Assembly (NCBI GenBank): GCA_003488965.1
Contig: DNJW01000417.1
Span: 18,187 to 30,753, forward strand
Origin: Lachnospiraceae bacterium
Lineage (GTDB): Bacteria; Bacillota; Clostridia; Lachnospirales; Lachnospiraceae
Direction of reading: 5' to 3'
DNA: 12,567 nucleotides
Both the position numbers and the translations under genes were made by a program. This document shows, one piece after another, positions 1-8,587 of the stretch (positions are counted from its first letter, which is position 1; every line of letters begins with the position of its first letter). The notes under the pieces are model-generated. The model did no database searches. It was not told where the DNA came from and saw only the letters and a list, made by a program, of their open reading frames with translations.

Positions 1-1092
1 GTCTATGCAGGTATATAATACATTCTTAAAGTCTTCTCCTGTCTCACTGTCAATTCCTGTCTCGAAAACTTCAAAAAGCCAGACCGTTTTTACCTCATAT
101 TTACCTGCAGATGTCTTGACCGGCATCTGATACAGCTTGGCTCTTGTTGCTGTATATTTGGCACCAGTAAGTATATTTCCATATTTATCGGCAACCTTTT
201 GTGCTATTTCATCAAATTGTTTCAGTTTTATATTTTCATCCGTAGTTTCAAATGTATATACTTTTGCCACATCCAGACGCTTCAGCCCGTCTTTAGAACA
301 TACTGCCTGTATTGGTCTGTTTTCTATACTGTCCTGCGGAAAGTCTTGTTCGCCAAAATAAACCGGGATCCCATCATGCAGCTGCTCGGCAAAAAAATAA
401 TAACAATCATCTTCCTCTGTCCATATACTCTTTTCCGATTCAATATTTTTTCCTTCCATTTCCACATGAGACTCTTCCTGCTGCATTGTATTATAATCCA
501 GCGAAAAATACTCATAATGGCACTCGCCCAGTTCATATCCGGATTGGTTGATTAGCTTTTTGACCTCTTCAAAGCACACCTCCGGTGACTGAAAATTTAA
601 TGTCGGCAGCAAATATTTATCGGCATTATATAATTCACCGTCTTCAACGTGAAATGCACTATGAATCTTCTCAAAAAAGGGGGTTGAATAAACCAGAGTC
701 GTATCTATTGATATCAGGCTTTCATCATCATATTTTGCATAATATGTATCATACATAACGCTATTTTCGCCCTCAAATTCTCCCCTGTATTCATCTGCAA
801 CATTTTTATTCTCTGCAAATATATTTATTATATTATCTGCTTTGGGGATCTGCCTAACTGCGATACTTTTTTTAATAGTATTCAAATCGACATTCTCCGG
901 AACCTCTACCTTCAGATCAAATTCCACTTCATTTATTATTTCTTTCATGTTTTCAGGAAACTCTGTCGCTGATTCCAGCACAGCCTTATCTTCTCTCTGT
1001 TCTGTTTCGCCATTTTTCGCAGAACATCCGGCAAGCCCCAGCATCACTATAAGAAACATCACATAATAGTTTCTTCTCATTTTACATTCCAT
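1..1092 (-). CDS. Secreted lipoprotein of unknown function, 3' end beyond window
   Basis: An open frame of 364 codons reads without a stop from the ATG at 1092 to the window edge, so the C-terminus is missing. The N-terminus is basic, then hydrophobic (about residues 9-22), and ends in a lipobox LAGC, so the protein should be lipid-anchored on the outer face of the membrane. The mature part is acidic and rich in Tyr, Glu and Asp, and I recognise no domain. I chose the ATG at 1092 because AAGGAGA (1102-1108) lies 9 bases upstream; the ATG at 1080 would be too far from it. The gene follows the small secreted protein on the same strand, about 135 bp away, with a hairpin between them. It may be the second gene of an agr-controlled unit; that is inference. 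Confidence 0.85.
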   Translation of the reverse strand, partial: MECKMRRNYYVMFLIVMLGLAGCSAKNGETEQREDKAVLESATEFPENMKEIINEVEFDLKVEVPENVDLNTIKKSIAVRQIPKADNIINIFAENKNVADEYRGEFEGENSVMYDTYYAKYDDESLISIDTTLVYSTPFFEKIHSAFHVEDGELYNADKYLLPTLNFQSPEVCFEEVKKLINQSGYELGECHYEYFSLDYNTMQQEESHVEMEGKNIESEKSIWTEEDDCYYFFAEQLHDGIPVYFGEQDFPQDSIENRPIQAVCSKDGLKRLDVAKVYTFETTDENIKLKQFDEIAQKVADKYGNILTGAKYTATRAKLYQMPVKTSAGKYEVKTVWLFEVFETGIDSETGEDFKNVLYTCID

Positions 1093-1226: not shown

Positions 1227-1637
1227 TTACGGACAATAATATCCTGTAACCGTCACTCTGCTAGTTGCCGGAGTTGCTTTCATATAATAATAAACGCCTC
1301 CATCTGCTGTTCTATTATACGCACGTACCTGAGTCATTCCAATATTATTACTGGAAAGATATGCACTATTTGACATTAAGGAAGTGTCCGTTTTCTTATA
1401 GGAGCGAACATAAATCCCTGCAGTTGCTTTATTAAAAGTACTTCCTGTAAAATATGCATTGTTATCTCCATCTGCGGTTTTAATTTCCTTCATAGATAAT
1501 GGATCCTGAGTACCCGAACCACCAACGGTTACCGTAAAGGGTATAGTCTCAGCAAATGCAGTTGTCCCTGCACATGCCAGACTCATAGCTGCGAATGCAG
1601 CACACATCATACGTTTAATTTTCTGCGTTTTCATCAT
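1227..1637 (-). CDS. Small secreted protein (136 aa), possible agr-controlled product
   Basis: The N-terminus is a clear Sec signal peptide: basic start, hydrophobic stretch with Ala, Met and Cys, and probable cleavage after Ala-Phe-Ala at about residue 29. The mature part is about 107 residues, rich in Gly, Ser, Thr, Asn and Tyr, and looks beta-structured. It ends in VTVTGYYCP with one Cys near the end. Layout and ending recall small secreted Firmicute proteins of the DUF2712 type, but I cannot confirm membership. TTG at 1640 also opens the frame; I chose the ATG at 1637 because GGAG lies 8 bases upstream. A -10 box (TATACT, 1697-1692) and a tandem site shared with the agr promoters lie upstream, so I infer that it is an output of the adjacent agr system. 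Confidence 0.8.
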   Translation of the reverse strand: MMKTQKIKRMMCAAFAAMSLACAGTTAFAETIPFTVTVGGSGTQDPLSMKEIKTADGDNNAYFTGSTFNKATAGIYVRSYKKTDTSLMSNSAYLSSNNIGMTQVRAYNRTADGGVYYYMKATPATSRVTVTGYYCP

Positions 1638-1691: not shown

Positions 1692-1759
1692 AGTATAGCG
1701 CAGCTTGATATTCCAATGTTTCTTTTGACCACTAATCATGTATTCCTTGTCCATCTATT
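1692..1759 (-). promoter_or_regulatory. Promoter of the small secreted protein with tandem AgrA-type sites
   Basis: Reading the minus strand, AATAGATGGACA (1759-1748) and GATTAGTGGTCA (1737-1726) start exactly 22 bp apart. The second ends 28 bp before a -10 box, TATACT (1697-1692), which lacks a good -35. The same arrangement occurs upstream of agrB and of the gene at 3970-4506. Tandem sites two helical turns apart next to a weak -35 are typical of LytTR regulators such as AgrA. Binding is inferred, not shown. A second possible promoter lies further upstream: TTGACA (1808-1803), a 20-bp spacer and TATATT (1782-1777). Confidence 0.55.
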
Positions 1760-1824
1760 TTTTGCCATGTTTCTGCAATATAAAAATAGAGTTTAATCTG
1801 GCTGTCAATTCTATATTTTCTGTC

Positions 1825-1851
1825 CGCAAAAAAACTGCCGGAAATTTCCGG
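1825..1851 (-). terminator. Rho-independent terminator of agrC
   Basis: The 20-bp perfect palindrome at 1832-1851 (arm CTGCCGGAAA) is followed on the minus strand by seven T (1831-1825). It starts 34 bases after the agrC stop and closes the agrA-agrC transcript. Confidence 0.92.
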
Positions 1852-1885
1852 CAGCCAATCTATTACCCTCTCATATTGTTTTATA

Positions 1886-3199
1886 TCACTCCATATTTTT
1901 CTTGTCCCACTGCATCATAATTTTTACCGTAAACACGCCATTCTCCGCTGTGCAGTCCATAGTTCCGCTGTATTTTTCCACTGTATCCCGGACACTGCGC
2001 AGACCCCATCCATGAAGGCTTTTATTTTCTTTCGTAGTCTTCGGAAAGCCACCAGAGCTCTTTAGATCTTCCCTGCACGGATTTATCACTTTAATAAGCA
2101 GAAAATAATTGATTCTGCGCATCGTCAGGCAAATACATCCCTTCTGTTCTGTATCTGCCGCGGCTTCTATTGCGTTGTCCAGCAGATTAGAAAGAATTGT
2201 ACACATATCATTTGGAGTGATATTGCATTCTGCCGGATATTCCACATTGATGTCCGCTTCCATTCCGCATTGCTTTATTTTTTCCAGTTTACTGTTAATA
2301 ATCACATCCACCACGTCCACGCCTGTCCATGCAGTTTTCGACAGCTTTAAAATCGGTCTGCTTATTTCTTTGATATATTCCTTTGCCCTCGTCTCATTTT
2401 TTTCCTCCAGCAACTGATACAGCGTATTTAAATGATTATTCAGATCATGATATAGTTTTGCATTTTCCATATAAACATCATTTAACGCCTCATATTTATC
2501 CTCCAGCAACCGGCTCTGCATCTCCACAAAGCCCAGCGCCATCTTCTCCTTTTGTCTCTCTATCATAAAATATACCACAAGCACAATCAATGCCAGTATG
2601 CAGACAAACATAAACCATACCCACGGTACCGTAAAATTAAAGGTTTTCATTGTCTGTCCCACCAGAAATGCAAACCCACAGAATCCAGCTATTGATATCA
2701 GAAGCGCTGCGTTAGCGCCCCGGACACTGACAGATATCTTTTGCAGGAACTTTTTTAGCACTAAAAAAGCAATAATCCATAATGTCTTTATCAGAATAAC
2801 CAGTCTGGCGCGCAACGGTCCCATATCGTACAACAAAGCCGTCAGAGTATCGGCTCCCTTATAGACGTTCGATGCTATAGTCAAAACAAGGAAATCAAAA
2901 CCACTTATACACAATACATAAAAACTTACAACCGCCAATATGCTAATATACTTTCCTCTATATATCTGCGCACCAGATATGCTGGTAAAAAGTGCAAACA
3001 TAAACATTGTAAAATATGAGAAAAGGGAAATCTGGTTGCAGAGTCTGGTTATAACAGCACCAATAAGAGCCCATATAATCATTTCTATCTGTTTTTTATA
3101 CGGATTTCTCGCCGGGAAAAAAATCTCCAATACCTTATATGCAATAAAAACTTCTATAAAGGATGCCAGATATTCTACTACTTCCCATACTATCCTCAT
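1886..3199 (-). CDS. agrC: AgrC-type sensor histidine kinase (GHKL)
   Basis: This is the membrane receptor kinase of a peptide quorum-sensing system and presumably senses the cyclic peptide made from the adjacent agrD. Residues 1-215 hold about six hydrophobic segments, the usual AgrC sensor. A coiled linker follows, then the phospho-acceptor region around YHDLNNHL with His251. The ATPase domain has the N-box SNLLDNAIEAA (337-347) and the glycine motif GWGLRSV (397-403). Length (437 aa) is normal for the family. The ATG overlaps the agrA stop by 4 bases (ATGA), so the two are translationally coupled, regulator first. The ligand pairing is inferred from position only. Confidence 0.93.
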   Translation of the reverse strand: MRIVWEVVEYLASFIEVFIAYKVLEIFFPARNPYKKQIEMIIWALIGAVITRLCNQISLFSYFTMFMFALFTSISGAQIYRGKYISILAVVSFYVLCISGFDFLVLTIASNVYKGADTLTALLYDMGPLRARLVILIKTLWIIAFLVLKKFLQKISVSVRGANAALLISIAGFCGFAFLVGQTMKTFNFTVPWVWFMFVCILALIVLVVYFMIERQKEKMALGFVEMQSRLLEDKYEALNDVYMENAKLYHDLNNHLNTLYQLLEEKNETRAKEYIKEISRPILKLSKTAWTGVDVVDVIINSKLEKIKQCGMEADINVEYPAECNITPNDMCTILSNLLDNAIEAAADTEQKGCICLTMRRINYFLLIKVINPCREDLKSSGGFPKTTKENKSLHGWGLRSVRDTVEKYSGTMDCTAENGVFTVKIMMQWDKKNME

Positions 3200-3915
3200 A
3201 TCTGTTCTCCCCAGAACTTACTCAATGTCTGCTTGATTTGCTCTTCCTTTGCGTGACTGGCTGGCAGCCGGATTCCGTTTTCCATCTCTACAATGCCATC
3301 CTTCACCCTCAATATATACCTCAGATTGGCAATATTCCCCCGGTCTATATAAATAAAATCCTTACAGTTCAGCTCTCCCATCACCTGTGCCAGACTCTTT
3401 CTCACTCTCGTTTCCGTATTGTCTGTGAGTGAAATCACCGTATTTTTTCCCTCTCTCCAGATATATAAAATTCGCTGATACGGTATCTTCTCCACCCGGC
3501 TCGGCATCGTAATATGGTAATACCGGTCTGATCTTCCCTCTATCAGCTTTACCACATCCTCCAGCGCATGCCGCAGTCTTTCATCGATTGCATTCTTGGG
3601 AATATATCGAAATACAGCCAGCTCGTACGCATCTATCGCATATTTCAGATATGAGGTAACAAAAATAATAAAAACATCCGGCAAATGTGATTTAATGTAA
3701 CGCGCCAGATCCATTCCATTTATGTAAGGCATATCAATGTCACTTAGAATAATGTCAAAGTATTTTCCTTCCTGGATATCGTACTGAAGCATTCTGCTCT
3801 GGGAATATGCAGCAATTTCCATACAGATATTATTTTTCTTAAAATATGCCGTTACTTTTTTTGTCAGCGACTCTGCCGCTTTTTCATTATCATCACAAAT
3901 TGCAATATAAATCAT
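3196..3915 (-). CDS. agrA: AgrA-type LytTR response regulator
   Basis: A cytoplasmic transcription factor of 239 residues. The receiver domain (1-120) has the acidic pair Asp8-Asp9, the phospho-acceptor Asp59 in LSDIDMP and the conserved Lys in RYIPKN. The LytTR DNA-binding domain covers about 135-235, with IPYQRILYI and the KDFIYIDRGNIANL region. It is 54 bp downstream of the 178-aa unknown gene and overlaps agrC by 4 bases. The start has GGGAG a few bases upstream. LytTR proteins bind pairs of short direct repeats about two helical turns apart; candidate pairs occur at 5390-5423, 4570-4603 and 1726-1759. Autoregulation is therefore likely, but inferred. Confidence 0.93.
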   Translation of the reverse strand: MIYIAICDDNEKAAESLTKKVTAYFKKNNICMEIAAYSQSRMLQYDIQEGKYFDIILSDIDMPYINGMDLARYIKSHLPDVFIIFVTSYLKYAIDAYELAVFRYIPKNAIDERLRHALEDVVKLIEGRSDRYYHITMPSRVEKIPYQRILYIWREGKNTVISLTDNTETRVRKSLAQVMGELNCKDFIYIDRGNIANLRYILRVKDGIVEMENGIRLPASHAKEEQIKQTLSKFWGEQI

Positions 3916-3969
3916 ATCCGCTTCTCCCTCATTTTCTGCTTCTTATTGTATCAGTATTTCCACTTTTTC

Positions 3970-4506
3970 TCAATCACGAAAGGTATAAAATGCCCCTTTC
4001 CGGATATCGTGAAAAAATATTTCCTTCTCGTTGATTACCAGTTCATATAAATCCCCGGTGGCAGCACACTCATAGCAAAATATCCCCATTTCTTTTTTCT
4101 CTGTTTTTCTGATAATGTCTTCCACAACCTCGCCGATCTTCATACCCTGCCCGGAAGATGCCGGCCATCTCCGGAGCATACTCCTTACCTGGCTTTTGTT
4201 CAGCTTCACTTTTTTCGAGACATAAAACTTCTGTGGGAACTGCATTTCCCGCGTCGTTCCCAGACTGTCCAGAATCCGATCAAATACCTCCGCTCCCTCT
4301 TCGTAGGCGAAGCCCATCTCCAGATATGCCTGCATATGCAGCATTGCCGTCTCCAAAAAACGAATATCCTTCAGTTTTTCATAATACCAGTAAAGCTGCT
4401 CTGCCGCATCAATCATCGTCTTCTTCACGGAAAGATTTTTGTACTGGACACTGCCTGCTGCCATCTTAATTGCTTCAATATAACTGTTCCGCTCTGTTCC
4501 CTGCAT
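3970..4506 (-). CDS. Unrecognised 178-aa protein inside the agr locus
   Basis: I do not recognise this protein. It has no signal peptide or membrane segment, so it is probably cytoplasmic. Residues 1-90 look alpha-helical. The middle is basic (KKVKLNKSQVRSMLRRW), and the C-terminal third contains FCYECA and ends in a short beta-rich stretch (YELVINEKEIFFHDIR). The start is well supported: GGAGG lies 8 bases upstream of the ATG, and an extended -10 (TGCTATAAT) lies 30 bp further up. It sits between agrD and agrA, where staphylococcal agr operons have no extra gene, and appears to be co-transcribed with agrA-agrC. Its own tandem-site promoter suggests it belongs to the circuit, for example as a modulator, but no function can be assigned. 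Confidence 0.8.
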   Translation of the reverse strand: MQGTERNSYIEAIKMAAGSVQYKNLSVKKTMIDAAEQLYWYYEKLKDIRFLETAMLHMQAYLEMGFAYEEGAEVFDRILDSLGTTREMQFPQKFYVSKKVKLNKSQVRSMLRRWPASSGQGMKIGEVVEDIIRKTEKKEMGIFCYECAATGDLYELVINEKEIFFHDIRKGAFYTFRD

Positions 4507-4535
4507 TACATCTGCCTCCAGACTTTTTTTGACTA

Positions 4536-4603
4536 ATTATAGCAAAACAGCATACCCGGAAGGGGATTCTGTCCGCAAAACACTGCCGTTTTGCCCACAG
4601 AAT
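4536..4603 (-). promoter_or_regulatory. Extended -10 promoter with tandem AgrA-type sites, for the 178-aa gene and agrA-agrC
   Basis: The minus strand has TGCTATAAT at 4544-4536, an extended -10 with no recognisable -35. Upstream are ATTCTGTGGGCA (4603-4592) and GTTTTGCGGACA (4581-4570), starting 22 bp apart, with 28 bp between the second copy and the -10. Both copies lie in the arms of the 64-bp inverted repeat. This suggests a second, activator-dependent promoter inside the agr locus. Confidence 0.6.
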
Positions 4604-4616
4604 TTCCTTCCGGGTA
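4553..4616. repeat. 64-bp imperfect inverted repeat between agrD and the 178-aa gene
   Basis: Two 29-base arms (4553-4581 and 4588-4616) enclose the 6-base loop ACTGCC. Twenty-five of 29 positions pair perfectly, including runs of 11, 7 and 7. It begins 21 bases after the agrD stop. No U-run follows on the minus strand, so it may act as a 3' stabiliser or partial attenuator of agrBD mRNA. Part of it also resembles the sequence next to the agrC terminator (CTGCCG and TGTCCGC on the plus strand). Confidence 0.75.
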
Positions 4617-4637
4617 AAGTACACAAACTCATCCGTT

Positions 4638-4745
4638 TTATTTTCTTAATGCAGCTGGTACTTGGGGCTGATAGGAACCACAACAAGATGCACATCCAGC
4701 CCCCAGATTTGCACAGACTTCAATAATTTTCGCAATAATCTCCAC
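4638..4745 (-). CDS. agrD: AgrD-type autoinducer peptide precursor, 35 aa
   Basis: Short frame starting with GTG inside the end of agrB (26-base overlap), preceded by AAAGGGGGA with 8 bases of spacing. A stop codon two codons upstream excludes a longer form. Residues 1-14 form an amphipathic helix (MEIIAKIIEVCANL), as AgrD uses to sit on the membrane. Then come GAGCASCCGS and the conserved acidless tail YQPQVPAALRK, which matches the YQP-x-x-P recognition tail of clostridial AgrD. Known AIPs of this type end just before YQP/YEP/HQP, so the predicted signal ends at Ser24. The five-residue ring would be Ser-Cys-Cys-Gly-Ser, closed through Ser20 unless a Cys is used. The ring chemistry is inference. 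Confidence 0.85.
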   Translation of the reverse strand: MEIIAKIIEVCANLGAGCASCCGSYQPQVPAALRK

Positions 4746-5331
4746 GCCTTATTCCCCCTTTCCTACTGTTTTTTATATCAGCAAGCAGCATAAGCGCTGT
4801 TACCAATCCCATTGCAAAAGCGGCGTTTTCCATCCGCTCCAGGCTATAACGTGACAACACCCATATGTAAAATAAATCTACAATCACCATTGCCGAAGCC
4901 ATTCTGGCGTTTACCTGCTTCCGGTGCTCCGATAACGGCTGGTTTACATGGCGCACCGGAGAACGCATAGAAATATACACAGTCATCAAAAGTAACGCAA
5001 ATACAAGAACTCTCATCGGTATCAGCGGCTGTAAAATACTTTGCAGAAACATAGTGAAGCCATACAATAAGATAGTAATCACATAACATTTTCCATAGGT
5101 ATCCGCATGATACCCGCCGGTGAAAAGCCGCAGCGGTGCAAAAACAGAAAGAAAAACCACTCCCATCATCACATCCCCGCACAGCGCAGAAAATACCAGA
5201 ATTGTTATAAATATCAGACCTGTTGAAATGATCAGCTCGATTCCATAAACATAAATCTCCTGTTTCTCTTCTCCCCCGCCTGTATCTTTCAGCACTTCTG
5301 CTGCAAGCTTTACCGCTACTCTATTCAACAT
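4720..5331 (-). CDS. agrB: AgrB-type membrane cysteine endopeptidase
   Basis: This integral membrane protease cuts the C-terminal tail off AgrD and helps form the cyclic autoinducer. The catalytic motif is RLFTGGYHADTYGKC with His75 and Cys82, matching the His/Cys pair and spacing of S. aureus AgrB. About five to six hydrophobic segments span residues 28-190. Length is 203 aa, normal for the family. The frame opens further upstream, but the ATG at 5331 is preceded by GGGAGGGAG at close spacing and begins with the typical MLNRVAVKLA, so I chose it. agrD overlaps its 3' end. The promoter region at 5358-5423 carries tandem sites for the cognate regulator. Confidence 0.95.
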   Translation of the reverse strand: MLNRVAVKLAAEVLKDTGGGEEKQEIYVYGIELIISTGLIFITILVFSALCGDVMMGVVFLSVFAPLRLFTGGYHADTYGKCYVITILLYGFTMFLQSILQPLIPMRVLVFALLLMTVYISMRSPVRHVNQPLSEHRKQVNARMASAMVIVDLFYIWVLSRYSLERMENAAFAMGLVTALMLLADIKNSRKGGIRRGDYCENY

Positions 5332-5357
5332 ACTGCTCTCCCTCCCATCTATTGTAT

Positions 5358-5423
5358 ATTTTATCAGATATTCTTGAAGCAGCACGGGGTGTCCGCGAAT
5401 TACCGGATATTTGTCCGTAAACT
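5358..5423 (-). promoter_or_regulatory. agrBD promoter with tandem AgrA-type sites
   Basis: On the minus strand AGTTTACGGACA (5423-5412) and AATTCGCGGACA (5401-5390) start 22 bp apart. They are followed after 26 bp by an extended -10, TGATAAAAT (hexamer 5363-5358), with no proper -35. The predicted transcript starts about 20 bases before agrB. This is the expected layout for positive autoregulation by an AgrA-type activator. Confidence 0.6.
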
Positions 5424-5519: not shown

Positions 5520-5569
5520 TTATATAAAATGATTTGCAGACTTGAACTTTGAAAACGGACGGTGATGGA

Positions 5570-5839
5570 ATGTCAGCAGAAGAAGTAATAAATACAGTGG
5601 CAGAAATCTGCCGAAAACATAATGCTCATGAAGTGATTCTTTTTGGTTCGCGGGCGAAAGGTACAGCAAGATACCAAAGCGATATTGATATTGCAGTTTC
5701 GGGAGCGGAACATTTTGACGAGCTTGCGGAAGAGGTGGAAGAGCTACCAACCCTATATACAATTGATCTGGTAAATCTCGACACATGCAAAAACAATTTG
5801 TTACTGGAGGATATCAAAATTTATGGAAGAAAAATTTAA
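5570..5839 (+). CDS. mntA: MntA-like minimal nucleotidyltransferase (antitoxin of a type VII TA pair)
   Basis: An 89-residue minimal nucleotidyltransferase. The motif GSRAKG (26-31) with SDID (Asp38, Asp40) binds ATP and metal, and Asp66 in YTIDLVNL is the third carboxylate. In studied MntA/HepT pairs this enzyme transfers AMP to a Tyr on the partner HEPN toxin and silences it. I chose ATG at 5570; a TTG at 5549 would add 7 residues, but the conserved fold begins after 5570 and GGTGATGGA precedes it. The partner gene overlaps its end by 17 bases, so the two are coupled. Related pairs are often annotated only as nucleotidyltransferase plus substrate-binding protein, so a toxin role is inferred. 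Confidence 0.88.
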   Translation: MSAEEVINTVAEICRKHNAHEVILFGSRAKGTARYQSDIDIAVSGAEHFDELAEEVEELPTLYTIDLVNLDTCKNNLLLEDIKIYGRKI

Positions 5840-6236
5840 AAGAAGGTATCTTTCTTATAAAAATTCATTACATGCACTTTCTGAAGCACGGGAAAGAGAC
5901 ATGACGGATTCTTTTGTGCTAAGCGGAACAAGTGCAAAGTTCTGTATTACCTTTGACCTTGCCTGGAAGGTCATGAAAGATATTTTAACAGGATATTATG
6001 CTATAACTGATTTCGTGGCAGGTTCACCCAGAGAAGTGCTGAAAAAAGCCTTTCAAGCCAGCTTAATCCATGACAATACGTGGATGGAGATGCTGCAGAT
6101 GCGCAATCAGCTTTCCCATGACTACGATGGGGATATCATTAAAAGCTGCTGTAAACTTATCACAGAAAACTATCTGAATGAATTTTACGAATTTCAGGAA
6201 ACGGTAGAAGCTCTCTTAAAAAATGAATCCGACTGA
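5823..6236 (+). CDS. hepT: HEPN-domain HepT-like protein (HI0074 family)
   Basis: A 137-residue all-helical protein of the HI0074 or nucleotidyltransferase substrate-binding type. The motif RNQLSHDYD (Arg94, His99, Tyr101) is the HEPN RNase signature R-x4-H followed by the Tyr that MntA-type enzymes modify. Length is typical and the gene looks intact. It starts inside the end of the nucleotidyltransferase gene, with GGAGG about 12 bases upstream. The likely role is a toxin RNase held inactive by its partner. The stop lies 8 bases before the decayed ptsI fragment and converges with the second TA module. Confidence 0.87.
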   Translation: MEEKFKRRYLSYKNSLHALSEARERDMTDSFVLSGTSAKFCITFDLAWKVMKDILTGYYAITDFVAGSPREVLKKAFQASLIHDNTWMEMLQMRNQLSHDYDGDIIKSCCKLITENYLNEFYEFQETVEALLKNESD

Positions 6237-6243
6237 TTCGGCC

Positions 6244-6331
6244 TGCCGGGGAGACTGACAATTCATCTACCCCCATTTTGATAACTCTTCTGTCAGTCCG
6301 AGGTCTGCTCCCAGTTCTCCGCAGATTCCCG
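6244..6331 (-). pseudogene. Degenerate duplicate of the ptsI 3' region
   Basis: These 88 bases match 6809-6897 inside ptsI with one base deleted (frameshift after TTTTGAT) and two substitutions. The copy corresponds to enzyme I residues of about 498-526 (around AGICGELGAD to LSVSPA). It stops short of the ptsI stop codon, and no gene reads through it. It lies between the end of hepT and the PIN-toxin remnant, in the same orientation as ptsI, so the TA remnant is flanked by direct repeats about 565 bp apart. Confidence 0.93.
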
Positions 6332-6346
6332 GCTCCGGCCGTTTCA

Positions 6347-6766: not shown

Positions 6767-8386
6767 CTATTCTATCTCCCGTATGCGTCTGCGCAGCTCC
6801 AGCACCATTGCCGGGGAGACTGACAATTCATCTACCCCCATTTTGATGAACTCTTCTGTCAGTTCGAGGTCCGCTCCCAGTTCTCCGCAGATTCCCGCCC
6901 ATTTTTCGTGGCGGTGCGCGCTCTCAACGGTCATGCGGATCATCTGCAGGATTGCCGGGTGATGCGGATCATAAAAGTCATCAAGACGGGCGTTCTGCCG
7001 GTCAAGGGCGAGTGTGTACTGTGTGAGATCGTTCGTCCCGATGCTGAAAAAATCAGCCAGTTCTGCCAGCTCATCACTGATCATCACGGCGGCGGGGGTC
7101 TCGATCATGATTCCCTGCTCCGGTACCCTGTAGGGAATCCCCTCCGCTTCCAGTTCCTCCTGCACCTGCCGCACGATCACGGCAATCTGCTGCATTTCTT
7201 TTACTGAGATAATCATCGGATACATGATAGAAAGATTGCCGTACATAGCCGCGCGCAGCAGCGCCCGTAATTGCGTCTTAAAAATTTCCGGTTGTTTTAA
7301 GCAGATGCGGATCGCGCGGTAGCCGAGCGCCGGATTTTCTTCTTCGCCTATCCCCAGATATTCCGCTTTTTTGTCCGCGCCGATGTCCAGTGTGCGGATG
7401 ATAACCTTTTTTTCGCCCATCATGCGCAGCACCTGCATGTACGCCTGGAACTGTTCTTCCTCACCTGGAAGATTACTGCGCCCGATGTACAGAAATTCAC
7501 TGCGGAACAGACCGATTCCTCCGGCGTCATTTTCCAGCACATAGCCGACGTCCCCCACCCCGCCGATGTTTGCATAAACATTCACTGTCCTGCCGCTGCG
7601 CGTCCGGTTTTCTTTTCCCTTCAGCTCCTTAAGAAGGGCCGTGCGCTCCCTCTCCTGTGCCATCCGGCTCTCTGCTTCCTGCAGAACTGCCTGCGACGGC
7701 TCAAAAATCACTTCACCGCGCATCCCGTCCACCACTACGGTCATGCCATTTTCTATTTCCTCCAGATCGAGCGGGACACCCACCAGAGCCGGAATATTCA
7801 TCATCCGCGCCAGGATCGCCGTATGGGAGTTGGCGGAGCCGTGTACCGTAACAAACGCTAAAATCCGGCTCTTGTCCATCTGCACTGTTTCGCTCGGCGA
7901 AAGATCATCCGCAATGATCACAGACGGCTGTGCGGCAGAGGGGCCGCTCTCTCCCAGTCCGCTCAGATTGCGGATCAGGCGGTTAGTGATGTCGCGCATG
8001 TCTGCGGCGCGCGCCTTCATATAATCGCTGTCCATCGCCGCAAACATCTCCGCGAAATGATCTCCCGCCGCTGCCGCCGCATATTCTGCATTTACCATTT
8101 CTGTGCGGATCATATGATACATTGCTTCCAGAAAATCCTCATCCTCAAGAATCATCTGATGCGCTTCAAAAATCATGGCATTCGCCTCACCGACCTCTGC
8201 CACAGCTTTCTCATGCAGCGTCTGAAGCTGCTGCTTTGATGCGGTGACCGCCTCCCGGATACGTGCAATCTCTGCCTCCGCATCCTCTGTTTTTCTGCGC
8301 TGTACCTGCTGGTCGCACTTTTTTATTACTGCGGCCGGCCCTACCGCAATGCCCTTATATACTGATTTCCCGGAAAGTTTCCACAT
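6767..8386 (-). CDS. ptsI: PTS enzyme I (phosphoenolpyruvate-protein phosphotransferase)
   Basis: A cytoplasmic enzyme that takes phosphate from PEP and passes it to HPr, feeding all PTS sugar uptake. At 539 aa it is slightly shorter than the usual 570. The N-terminal HPr-binding and swivel region holds the phospho-histidine His188 in GSANSHTAILAR. The PEP-binding barrel has Arg295 (GLFRSE), Arg331 (RTLDIG), the SIGTNDLTQY motif (448-457) and Cys500 in GICGE. I chose ATG at 8386 because GGAGG sits 9 bases upstream and the protein then begins in the expected SGKSVYKGIAVGPA; the 44-codon upstream extension is not enzyme I-like. No ptsH is adjacent. About 200 bp without a recognisable gene separate it from the carboxypeptidase gene. 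Part of its 3' region is duplicated at 6244-6331. Confidence 0.97.
   Translation of the reverse strand: MWKLSGKSVYKGIAVGPAAVIKKCDQQVQRRKTEDAEAEIARIREAVTASKQQLQTLHEKAVAEVGEANAMIFEAHQMILEDEDFLEAMYHMIRTEMVNAEYAAAAAGDHFAEMFAAMDSDYMKARAADMRDITNRLIRNLSGLGESGPSAAQPSVIIADDLSPSETVQMDKSRILAFVTVHGSANSHTAILARMMNIPALVGVPLDLEEIENGMTVVVDGMRGEVIFEPSQAVLQEAESRMAQERERTALLKELKGKENRTRSGRTVNVYANIGGVGDVGYVLENDAGGIGLFRSEFLYIGRSNLPGEEEQFQAYMQVLRMMGEKKVIIRTLDIGADKKAEYLGIGEEENPALGYRAIRICLKQPEIFKTQLRALLRAAMYGNLSIMYPMIISVKEMQQIAVIVRQVQEELEAEGIPYRVPEQGIMIETPAAVMISDELAELADFFSIGTNDLTQYTLALDRQNARLDDFYDPHHPAILQMIRMTVESAHRHEKWAGICGELGADLELTEEFIKMGVDELSVSPAMVLELRRRIREIE
6809..6897 (-). repeat. Intact copy of the duplicated ptsI segment
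   Basis: This 89-bp stretch within ptsI pairs with the degenerate copy at 6244-6331 as a direct repeat (3 differences). The matching sequence begins at CGGGAATC and ends at CCGGCA when read along the gene. Confidence 0.93.
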
Positions 8387-8587
8387 CACACAAAGCCTCC
8401 GTTTCTGCCCGTCCAATGTCCATGACCCGCCGCATGCAAACATGCGCTCCTCATGACCGCTGTCCGGGACTTTCACTGTAATATCATGCCCGGTTTTCCG
8501 GCACCTATACGCAAGCATTGTCTGATAAACAGATCTGATCCGGTATCCTCAAAAAGCATATGTGAAATGCCTGCGCAAAAACCAATT

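Follow-up and report, generated by a model that had tools for sequence, protein, structure and literature searches.

Paired GGACA-type repeats as a probable AgrA operator in a Lachnospiraceae agr clade

Paired repeats in the agr promoters

A 12,567-nucleotide stretch from a Lachnospiraceae bacterium (contig DNJW01000417.1, positions 18,187 to 30,753 of the forward strand; hereafter the window) carries an agr-type quorum-sensing locus on its minus strand, in the gene order agrB, agrD, p178 (coding for a conserved protein), agrA, agrC, sec137 and a lipoprotein-like gene. The promoters in front of agrB, p178 and sec137 are each preceded by a pair of 10-base-pair (bp) direct repeats, and these pairs are in all likelihood the operator of the local response regulator, AgrA, in a clade of Lachnospiraceae agr systems. 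A 22-bp pair was found upstream of agrB in all the distinct clade loci having both p178 and agrB (n = 13/13). The sites and promoters of the window are listed below, with mismatches counted over the ten-base halves against a pair of TTNRYGGACA.

5390..5421, minus strand: agrB operator, TTTACGGACA-N12-TTCGCGGACA, no mismatches
4570..4601, minus strand: p178 operator, TCTGTGGGCA-N12-TTTGCGGACA, two mismatches
1726..1757, minus strand: sec137 operator, TAGATGGACA-N12-TTAGTGGTCA, two mismatches
1799..1830, minus strand: fourth pair, TTTGCGGACA-N12-TTGACAGCCA, two mismatches
5358..5363, minus strand: -10 box of the agrB promoter, TAAAAT after TGA, 26 bp past the operator
4536..4541, minus strand: -10 box of the p178 promoter, TGC-TATAAT, 28 bp past the operator
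1692..1697, minus strand: -10 box of the sec137 promoter, TATACT, 28 bp past the operator

A sequence-only reading of this DNA had proposed six half-sites, spaced by 22 bp upstream of agrB, p178 and the secreted-protein gene, with 26, 28 and 28 bp from the inner copy to the -10 box and no good -35 box. All six half-sites were recovered on the minus strand, both the spacing and the three distances were reproduced, and in a comparison with TTGACA, allowing a spacing of 16-18 bp, two of six bases agreed for agrB and one of six for each of the other two promoters. The fourth pair (1830-1799), absent from that reading, sits 73 bp above the sec137 pair; no -10 box was found at the usual 26-28 bp from it, which suggests an auxiliary site without a promoter of its own. 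The period observed directly in all four pairs is 22 bp, a direct-repeat spacing of the LytTR type, equal to about two helical turns.

Relatives were collected by searching genome contigs with the p178 alignment, which yielded 24 loci; the 13 distinct ones with p178 and agrB are L110-L121 and L133 (L072 lies within L110). When single half-sites at no more than two mismatches were located upstream of agrB with no spacing rule imposed, the 22-bp spacing was present in 14 of the 14 agrB loci examined (13 distinct), and every other spacing in at most two. An absence of enrichment of the paired motif near the agr genes of relatives had been named beforehand as grounds for abandoning the AgrA reading, which therefore survived this comparison. 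Two loci with agrB-like matches, L126 (AgrA 37% identical) and L132 (25%), were not among the 14; neither yielded a pair at the threshold of a matrix scan, and a promoter model gave weak hits in L126 (22.4, 14.8 and 14.3 bits) and 8.8 bits in L132.

The promoters below the pairs share their anatomy. Thirty were listed and 27 counted, after exclusion of two weak pairs (L115 p178 and L121) and of the fourth pair of the window; L116 and L119, near-repeats of L114 and L117, were not entered. The -10 box was searched for at 20-35 bp, with a slight preference (0.05 per base) for 27.3, and started 26 bp (n = 3), 27 bp (n = 15) or 28 bp (n = 9) past the pair. It matched TATAAT in at least five of six bases in 23 of the 27 promoters, compared with 4.6% of random positions, and 21 of the 27 had a TGn extension, whereas the best -35 match across the 27 was no better than in a random control. 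An extended -10 box at a fixed distance, together with a chance-level -35 box, fits an activator that would stand in for the -35 element.

That the pairs are a short degenerate motif picked up by chance on reading many promoters is scarcely credible, although the motif was derived from these very sites and lone half-sites (at most one mismatch) were just mildly enriched in the window (16 versus 9.06 expected; 3 of 200 shuffles equally high). Against it stand the 22-bp spacing in the 14 agrB loci, the fixed -10 distance and training on relatives with the window held out. The held-out matrix was built from 22 half-sites in the agrB promoters of 11 relatives, these training pairs having originally been located with the pattern of the sequence-only reading, and it ranked the four window pairs on top (agrB 29.1, sec137 16.9, fourth pair 16.2 and p178 13.9; next 5.8). 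In 60 window shuffles the mean best score was 5.4 and the highest 18.0, and pairs at 13.9 or more numbered 0.03 per shuffle on average and never above one; other spacings (11-40 bp) reached at best 14.5. In our view, chance is refuted for the agrB pair.

A promoter sequence model of 65 positions (R1), built from 22 promoters of relatives, found the same four pairs in the window, with expectation values (E) from 1.2e-6 to 1.5e-4 (next E 0.092) and scores of 23.0 bits for agrB, 22.2 for the fourth pair, 16.9 for p178 and 16.3 for sec137. Searched against the source assembly (3.1 Mb, 65% complete), it placed the four window sites at ranks 1, 2, 3 and 5, and of the eight places with pairs at two mismatches or fewer in this assembly, four lie inside this 3.7-kb locus.

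The regulator and the genes under the pairs

The genes of the locus, with family scores and cut-offs in bits, are the following.

4720..5331, minus strand: agrB, PF04647 at 118.3 (cut-off 23)
4638..4745, minus strand: agrD, autoinducer precursor, TIGR04223 at 21.8 (cut-off 19)
3970..4506, minus strand: p178, conserved protein, mostly encoded in one locus with agrA
3196..3915, minus strand: agrA, response regulator with LytTR DNA-binding domain, PF00072 at 54.1 and PF04397 at 38.3
1886..3199, minus strand: agrC, GHKL histidine kinase, PF14501 at 90.3
1227..1637, minus strand: sec137, 136 amino acids, likely secreted, with a signal-peptide-like N-terminus (by eye)
1..1092, minus strand: lipoprotein-like gene 3' of sec137, extending beyond the window edge

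The agrA and agrC matches all exceed their cut-offs, as do those of agrB and agrD, giving the locus the AgrB, AgrD, GHKL kinase and LytTR response regulator by which an agr-type quorum-sensing locus is recognised. The local AgrA scored 28.8 bits against the staphylococcal AgrA equivalog NF046049 (NCBIfam), far below its cut-off of 400. The listed agrB reading frame begins at GTG 5385, which falls within the promoter, and the ATG at 5331, after a GGAGGGAGAG stretch, is therefore the likelier start.

Across relatives, the motif follows AgrA relatedness. AgrA was 52-65% identical in 12 of the 13 clade loci with a strong motif (L119 ends before agrA), and a same-genus genome with an AgrA of 46% identity (L142) had, in the stretch from agrC to a lipoprotein-like gene, a pair scoring 28.6. 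Among L122-L132 (AgrA 25-40% identical, L127 having no match), the window's weakest score of 17.6 was reached by a single pair, that of L127, which scored 18.2 and lies 7 kb from p178. In a Blautia caecimuris locus the model hits were weaker, one of them (22.4 bits) just past agrC.

Searching 397 genomes of the family at E of no more than 0.001, with filters stricter than in the own-genome search, the promoter model matched 15 places in 12 genomes. Of the 13 hits inspected outside the own genome, agr-like genes accompanied five, one being a training contig; counting independent hits, 4 of 12 lay beside agr genes versus none of 26 controls, all of them own-genome loci.

Several results weigh against the pairs being an AgrA operator. 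Eight of these 13 hits had no agr-like gene in the surrounding DNA examined, and among the 397 genomes a p178 match (16 genomes) and a model hit (12 genomes) coincided in only four. At E of 1 or less, the model did not hit any of three distant sec137 loci (L089-L091). Within the own genome, pairs at up to three mismatches were not in excess (30 versus 31 for the reversed pattern), and an unrelated place, C284 (16.3 bits), outranked one of the four window sites. Two further points concern p178, where the outer half-site scored just 0.8 in the held-out matrix and where a clear pair was seen in just three of 13 relatives (L111, L121 and L133), a weak one in L115 and none in nine; the p178 operator is the weakest of the proposed sites and poorly conserved.

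As a separate observation, the family-wide model hits L154, L155, L157 and L161 have GGACA-type pairs without agr-like genes in the surrounding DNA examined; at least the L157 pair has a period of 21 bp (by eye).

The pairs might instead serve another or an additional LytTR regulator of the same genome, with promoters shared between paralogous systems (cross-talk). The genome has 11 LytTR matches, and the C93 paralogue (AgrA 44% identical) has the pair TTCATGGACA-N11-ATTATGGACA right after its own agrC (L140, 3265-3295), so the recognition core looks the same and shared recognition would be possible. However, the C93 pair has a different period, 21 bp; the 22-bp pair accompanies this agr clade in all its distinct loci; and the second agr system, C259 (AgrA 38% identical), has only weak pairs (9.8 and 9.3) in the DNA examined, which includes little upstream of its agrB. 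We consider cross-talk distinctly unlikely, and control by the local AgrA, as put forward in the sequence-only reading, holds as the best account of the pairs, AgrA being the binder that we infer.

The same pair precedes signalling genes and a secreted-protein gene in the own genome, and signalling genes and secreted or bacteriocin-like genes in relatives, and a single regulator would therefore probably switch on signal and output together. In the chain that we infer, AgrB would process and export the agrD product as a cyclic peptide, which AgrC would sense, phosphorylating AgrA. An AgrA dimer would then use its LytTR domains to bind both half-sites, which lie two helical turns from each other, and, placed just above an extended -10 promoter without a usable -35, recruit RNA polymerase. 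Switching on agrBD would give autoinduction, switching on p178-agrA-agrC would supply more receptor and regulator, and switching on sec137, with the lipoprotein and ATP-binding cassette (ABC) genes behind it, would be the output.

The sec137 protein matched no Pfam or NCBIfam family; a protein search returned 11 proteins, the first 99% identical, and its structural model is beta-rich, with a mean predicted local distance difference test score (pLDDT) of 75.3. On the contig, the lipoprotein-like gene is followed by two membrane-protein-like frames and an ABC ATPase, whose best fit was TIGR03740 (158.0 bits, cut-off 309.75). L114 has the gene order of the window, L116 has sec137 and the lipoprotein-like gene, and L111 has the same order without a sec137 match; in all three a pair lies between agrC and these output genes, in L114 and L116 before the sec137 relative. 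A palindromic TACCGGTA element was also noted in the leader just below the output -10 box, at 1669-1676, the sole such octamer in the window; it recurs at 6928-6935 in L111 and at 9879-9886 in L114 and L116, and is possibly a second control site.

Other relatives carry different genes behind the pair, as observed directly. Behind the L117 pair lie genes for a small protein of secreted type, a membrane protein with DUF1430 and a lactococcin-972-type ABC ATPase; by gene order alone, L118 repeats this arrangement and L119 has its first gene, while the L113 pair precedes a DUF1430 protein and an ABC ATPase. DUF1430 (PF07242) was above cut-off in both L117 and L113, TIGR01654 was below it (151.7 and 168.9; cut-off 189.35), and the ABC family TIGR03608 was under but near it (248.4 and 241; cut-off 254.85). 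In L112 (Faecalimonas umbilicata) the pair precedes two peptides of 53-54 amino acids with YydI-, YydG- and M50-like genes, the epipeptide families all scoring below their cut-offs (YydF 16.5 of 35, YydG 142.6 of 300 and YydI 222.8 of 240 bits). The lactococcin-972-like and epipeptide-like labels denote the best-fitting families, whose named NCBIfam models fall short of their cut-offs. Further pairs precede other genes in L120, L121 and L111. The proposal of autoinduction plus one secreted output is well supported for autoinduction, through agrB, and for a secreted output, but the outputs of relatives differ and several are bacteriocin-like.

The p178 promoter, the p178 protein and adjoining genes

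Around the p178 pair the sequence forms an inverted repeat, which the sequence-only reading had overlooked.

4553..4616, minus strand: inverted repeat between agrD and p178, 29-bp arms, 86% complementary

The RNA fold of 4535-4640 reached -45.2 kcal/mol (z -5.75), far better than shuffles. The p178 operator could accordingly be a by-product of a transcript-end hairpin, with p178-agrA-agrC expressed by read-through. In line with this, the agrD-p178 interval folded clearly better than shuffles in five of eight relatives (L110, L112, L114, L120 and L121; z -2.6 to -8.7) and not clearly better in L111, L113 and L115, and the nine relatives without a pair at p178 point the same way. On the other side, both half-sites owe their GG to a CC/GG deviation from the inverted repeat; a perfect TGC-TATAAT lies at the usual distance from the pair; the L111 p178 pair is outside such an inverted repeat, and the L121 halves pair over just 4 and 5 bp; and no T-run stands directly behind the window hairpin. 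The hairpin's 2x2 internal loop, GG/GG, coincides with the GG cores of both half-sites, as would be expected of a single stretch doubling as hairpin and operator. A mere by-product seems rather unlikely. The clear excess of folding over shuffles in five of the eight relatives suggests that agrBD may form a unit partly separate from p178-agrA-agrC.

The p178 protein had no curated Pfam or NCBIfam family above cut-off. A protein search found 139 related proteins, the closest named one from Marvinbryantia formatexigens (83%), and agrA was matched in 16 of 17 p178 loci in the family search (two of these loci overlap) and in 22 of 24 in the contig search. The predicted structure (mean pLDDT 90.3) has a helical N-terminal part and a beta C-terminal part, and its comparison with known folds gave no convincing match. 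We put p178 forward as a possible new agr signalling component.

Divergent from agrB, at 5549-6236, lie a nucleotidyltransferase gene (PF18765/PF01909) and a nucleotidyltransferase substrate-binding gene (PF08780); such gene pairs are often toxin-antitoxin-like. Beyond them, positions 6242-6335 repeat part of the 3' end (6808-6900) of the gene at 6767-8518, which resembles ptsI (repeat noted by eye; 61 of 94 bases identical, ungapped). The two copies flank a PIN-like frame with a small partner, as after an insertion.

Significance and comparison with known systems

The motif can serve as a practical search pattern for members of the agr regulon in gut anaerobes where manipulation is difficult. 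Several relatives suggest secreted or bacteriocin-like clusters as the target of such quorum sensing, and p178, a protein without a family, is singled out as a possible agr signalling component. A broader proposal is that a distinct operator code of the clade (NNCRYGGACA repeated every 22 bp, with an extended -10 lying 27-28 bp below) directly ties peptide quorum sensing to exchangeable antimicrobial-peptide clusters, with p178 as a built-in extra component acting on AgrA or its promoters; we hold this tentatively, as conceivable yet somewhat doubtful.

Agr-like systems of clostridia such as C. perfringens, C. difficile and C. acetobutylicum use agrBD-type signalling with LytTR-type regulators, and to our knowledge the p178 gene is not known from them. 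The letters of the staphylococcal AgrA repeat differ from the GGACA-type repeat of Lachnospiraceae. In S. aureus the agr promoters are P2 and P3, whereas here agrBD, p178-agrA-agrC and a secreted-protein operon stand in line. As described in the part of PMC4227749 considered here, S. aureus AgrA binds two direct repeats above P2 and P3, where promoter spacing is poor; the two systems share the two direct repeats, the poor -35/-10 spacing, the agr locus and autoinduction. The section of PMC11352710 compared suggests that bacteriocins of a Lachnospiraceae strain are under the control of cyclic lactone autoinducers, and names no operator. In our literature search, no description of this Lachnospiraceae operator was found.

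The closest parallel is with the operators of HdrR/BrsR-type LytTR regulators, taken from the passages and table rows of PMC6193735 used here. Those repeats are of 9 bp, for the most part resemble ACC[AG]CTTA[TC], are separated by 11-13 bp, mostly 12 (a 21-bp period), and lie immediately above promoters in which an extended -10 is frequent; autoregulation and, in S. mutans, bacteriocin outputs are described, and gel shifts and reporters support activation by HdrR at such a site (PMC6193735). Both sets have the direct-repeat plan above the promoter and often the extended -10, and they would share autoregulation and, going by the relatives, bacteriocin-like outputs. Aligned by eye, the two repeats have their C, R, Y and A positions in common, whereas the Lachnospiraceae repeats have GG at positions 6-7 where most of the repeats quoted there have TT. 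The period is 22 bp for NNCRYGGACA instead of 21 bp, and the -10 box lies 26-28 bp below the 10-mer, compared with 31-34 bp (27 once) when summed from the table rows of PMC6193735. HdrR/BrsR-type regulators, as presented there, are paired with a membrane inhibitor, in contrast with the local AgrA, which is paired with a histidine kinase and AgrBD. The geometry is that of an ordinary LytTR operator, a kind of switch already known, and what is new is its GG-core sequence version.

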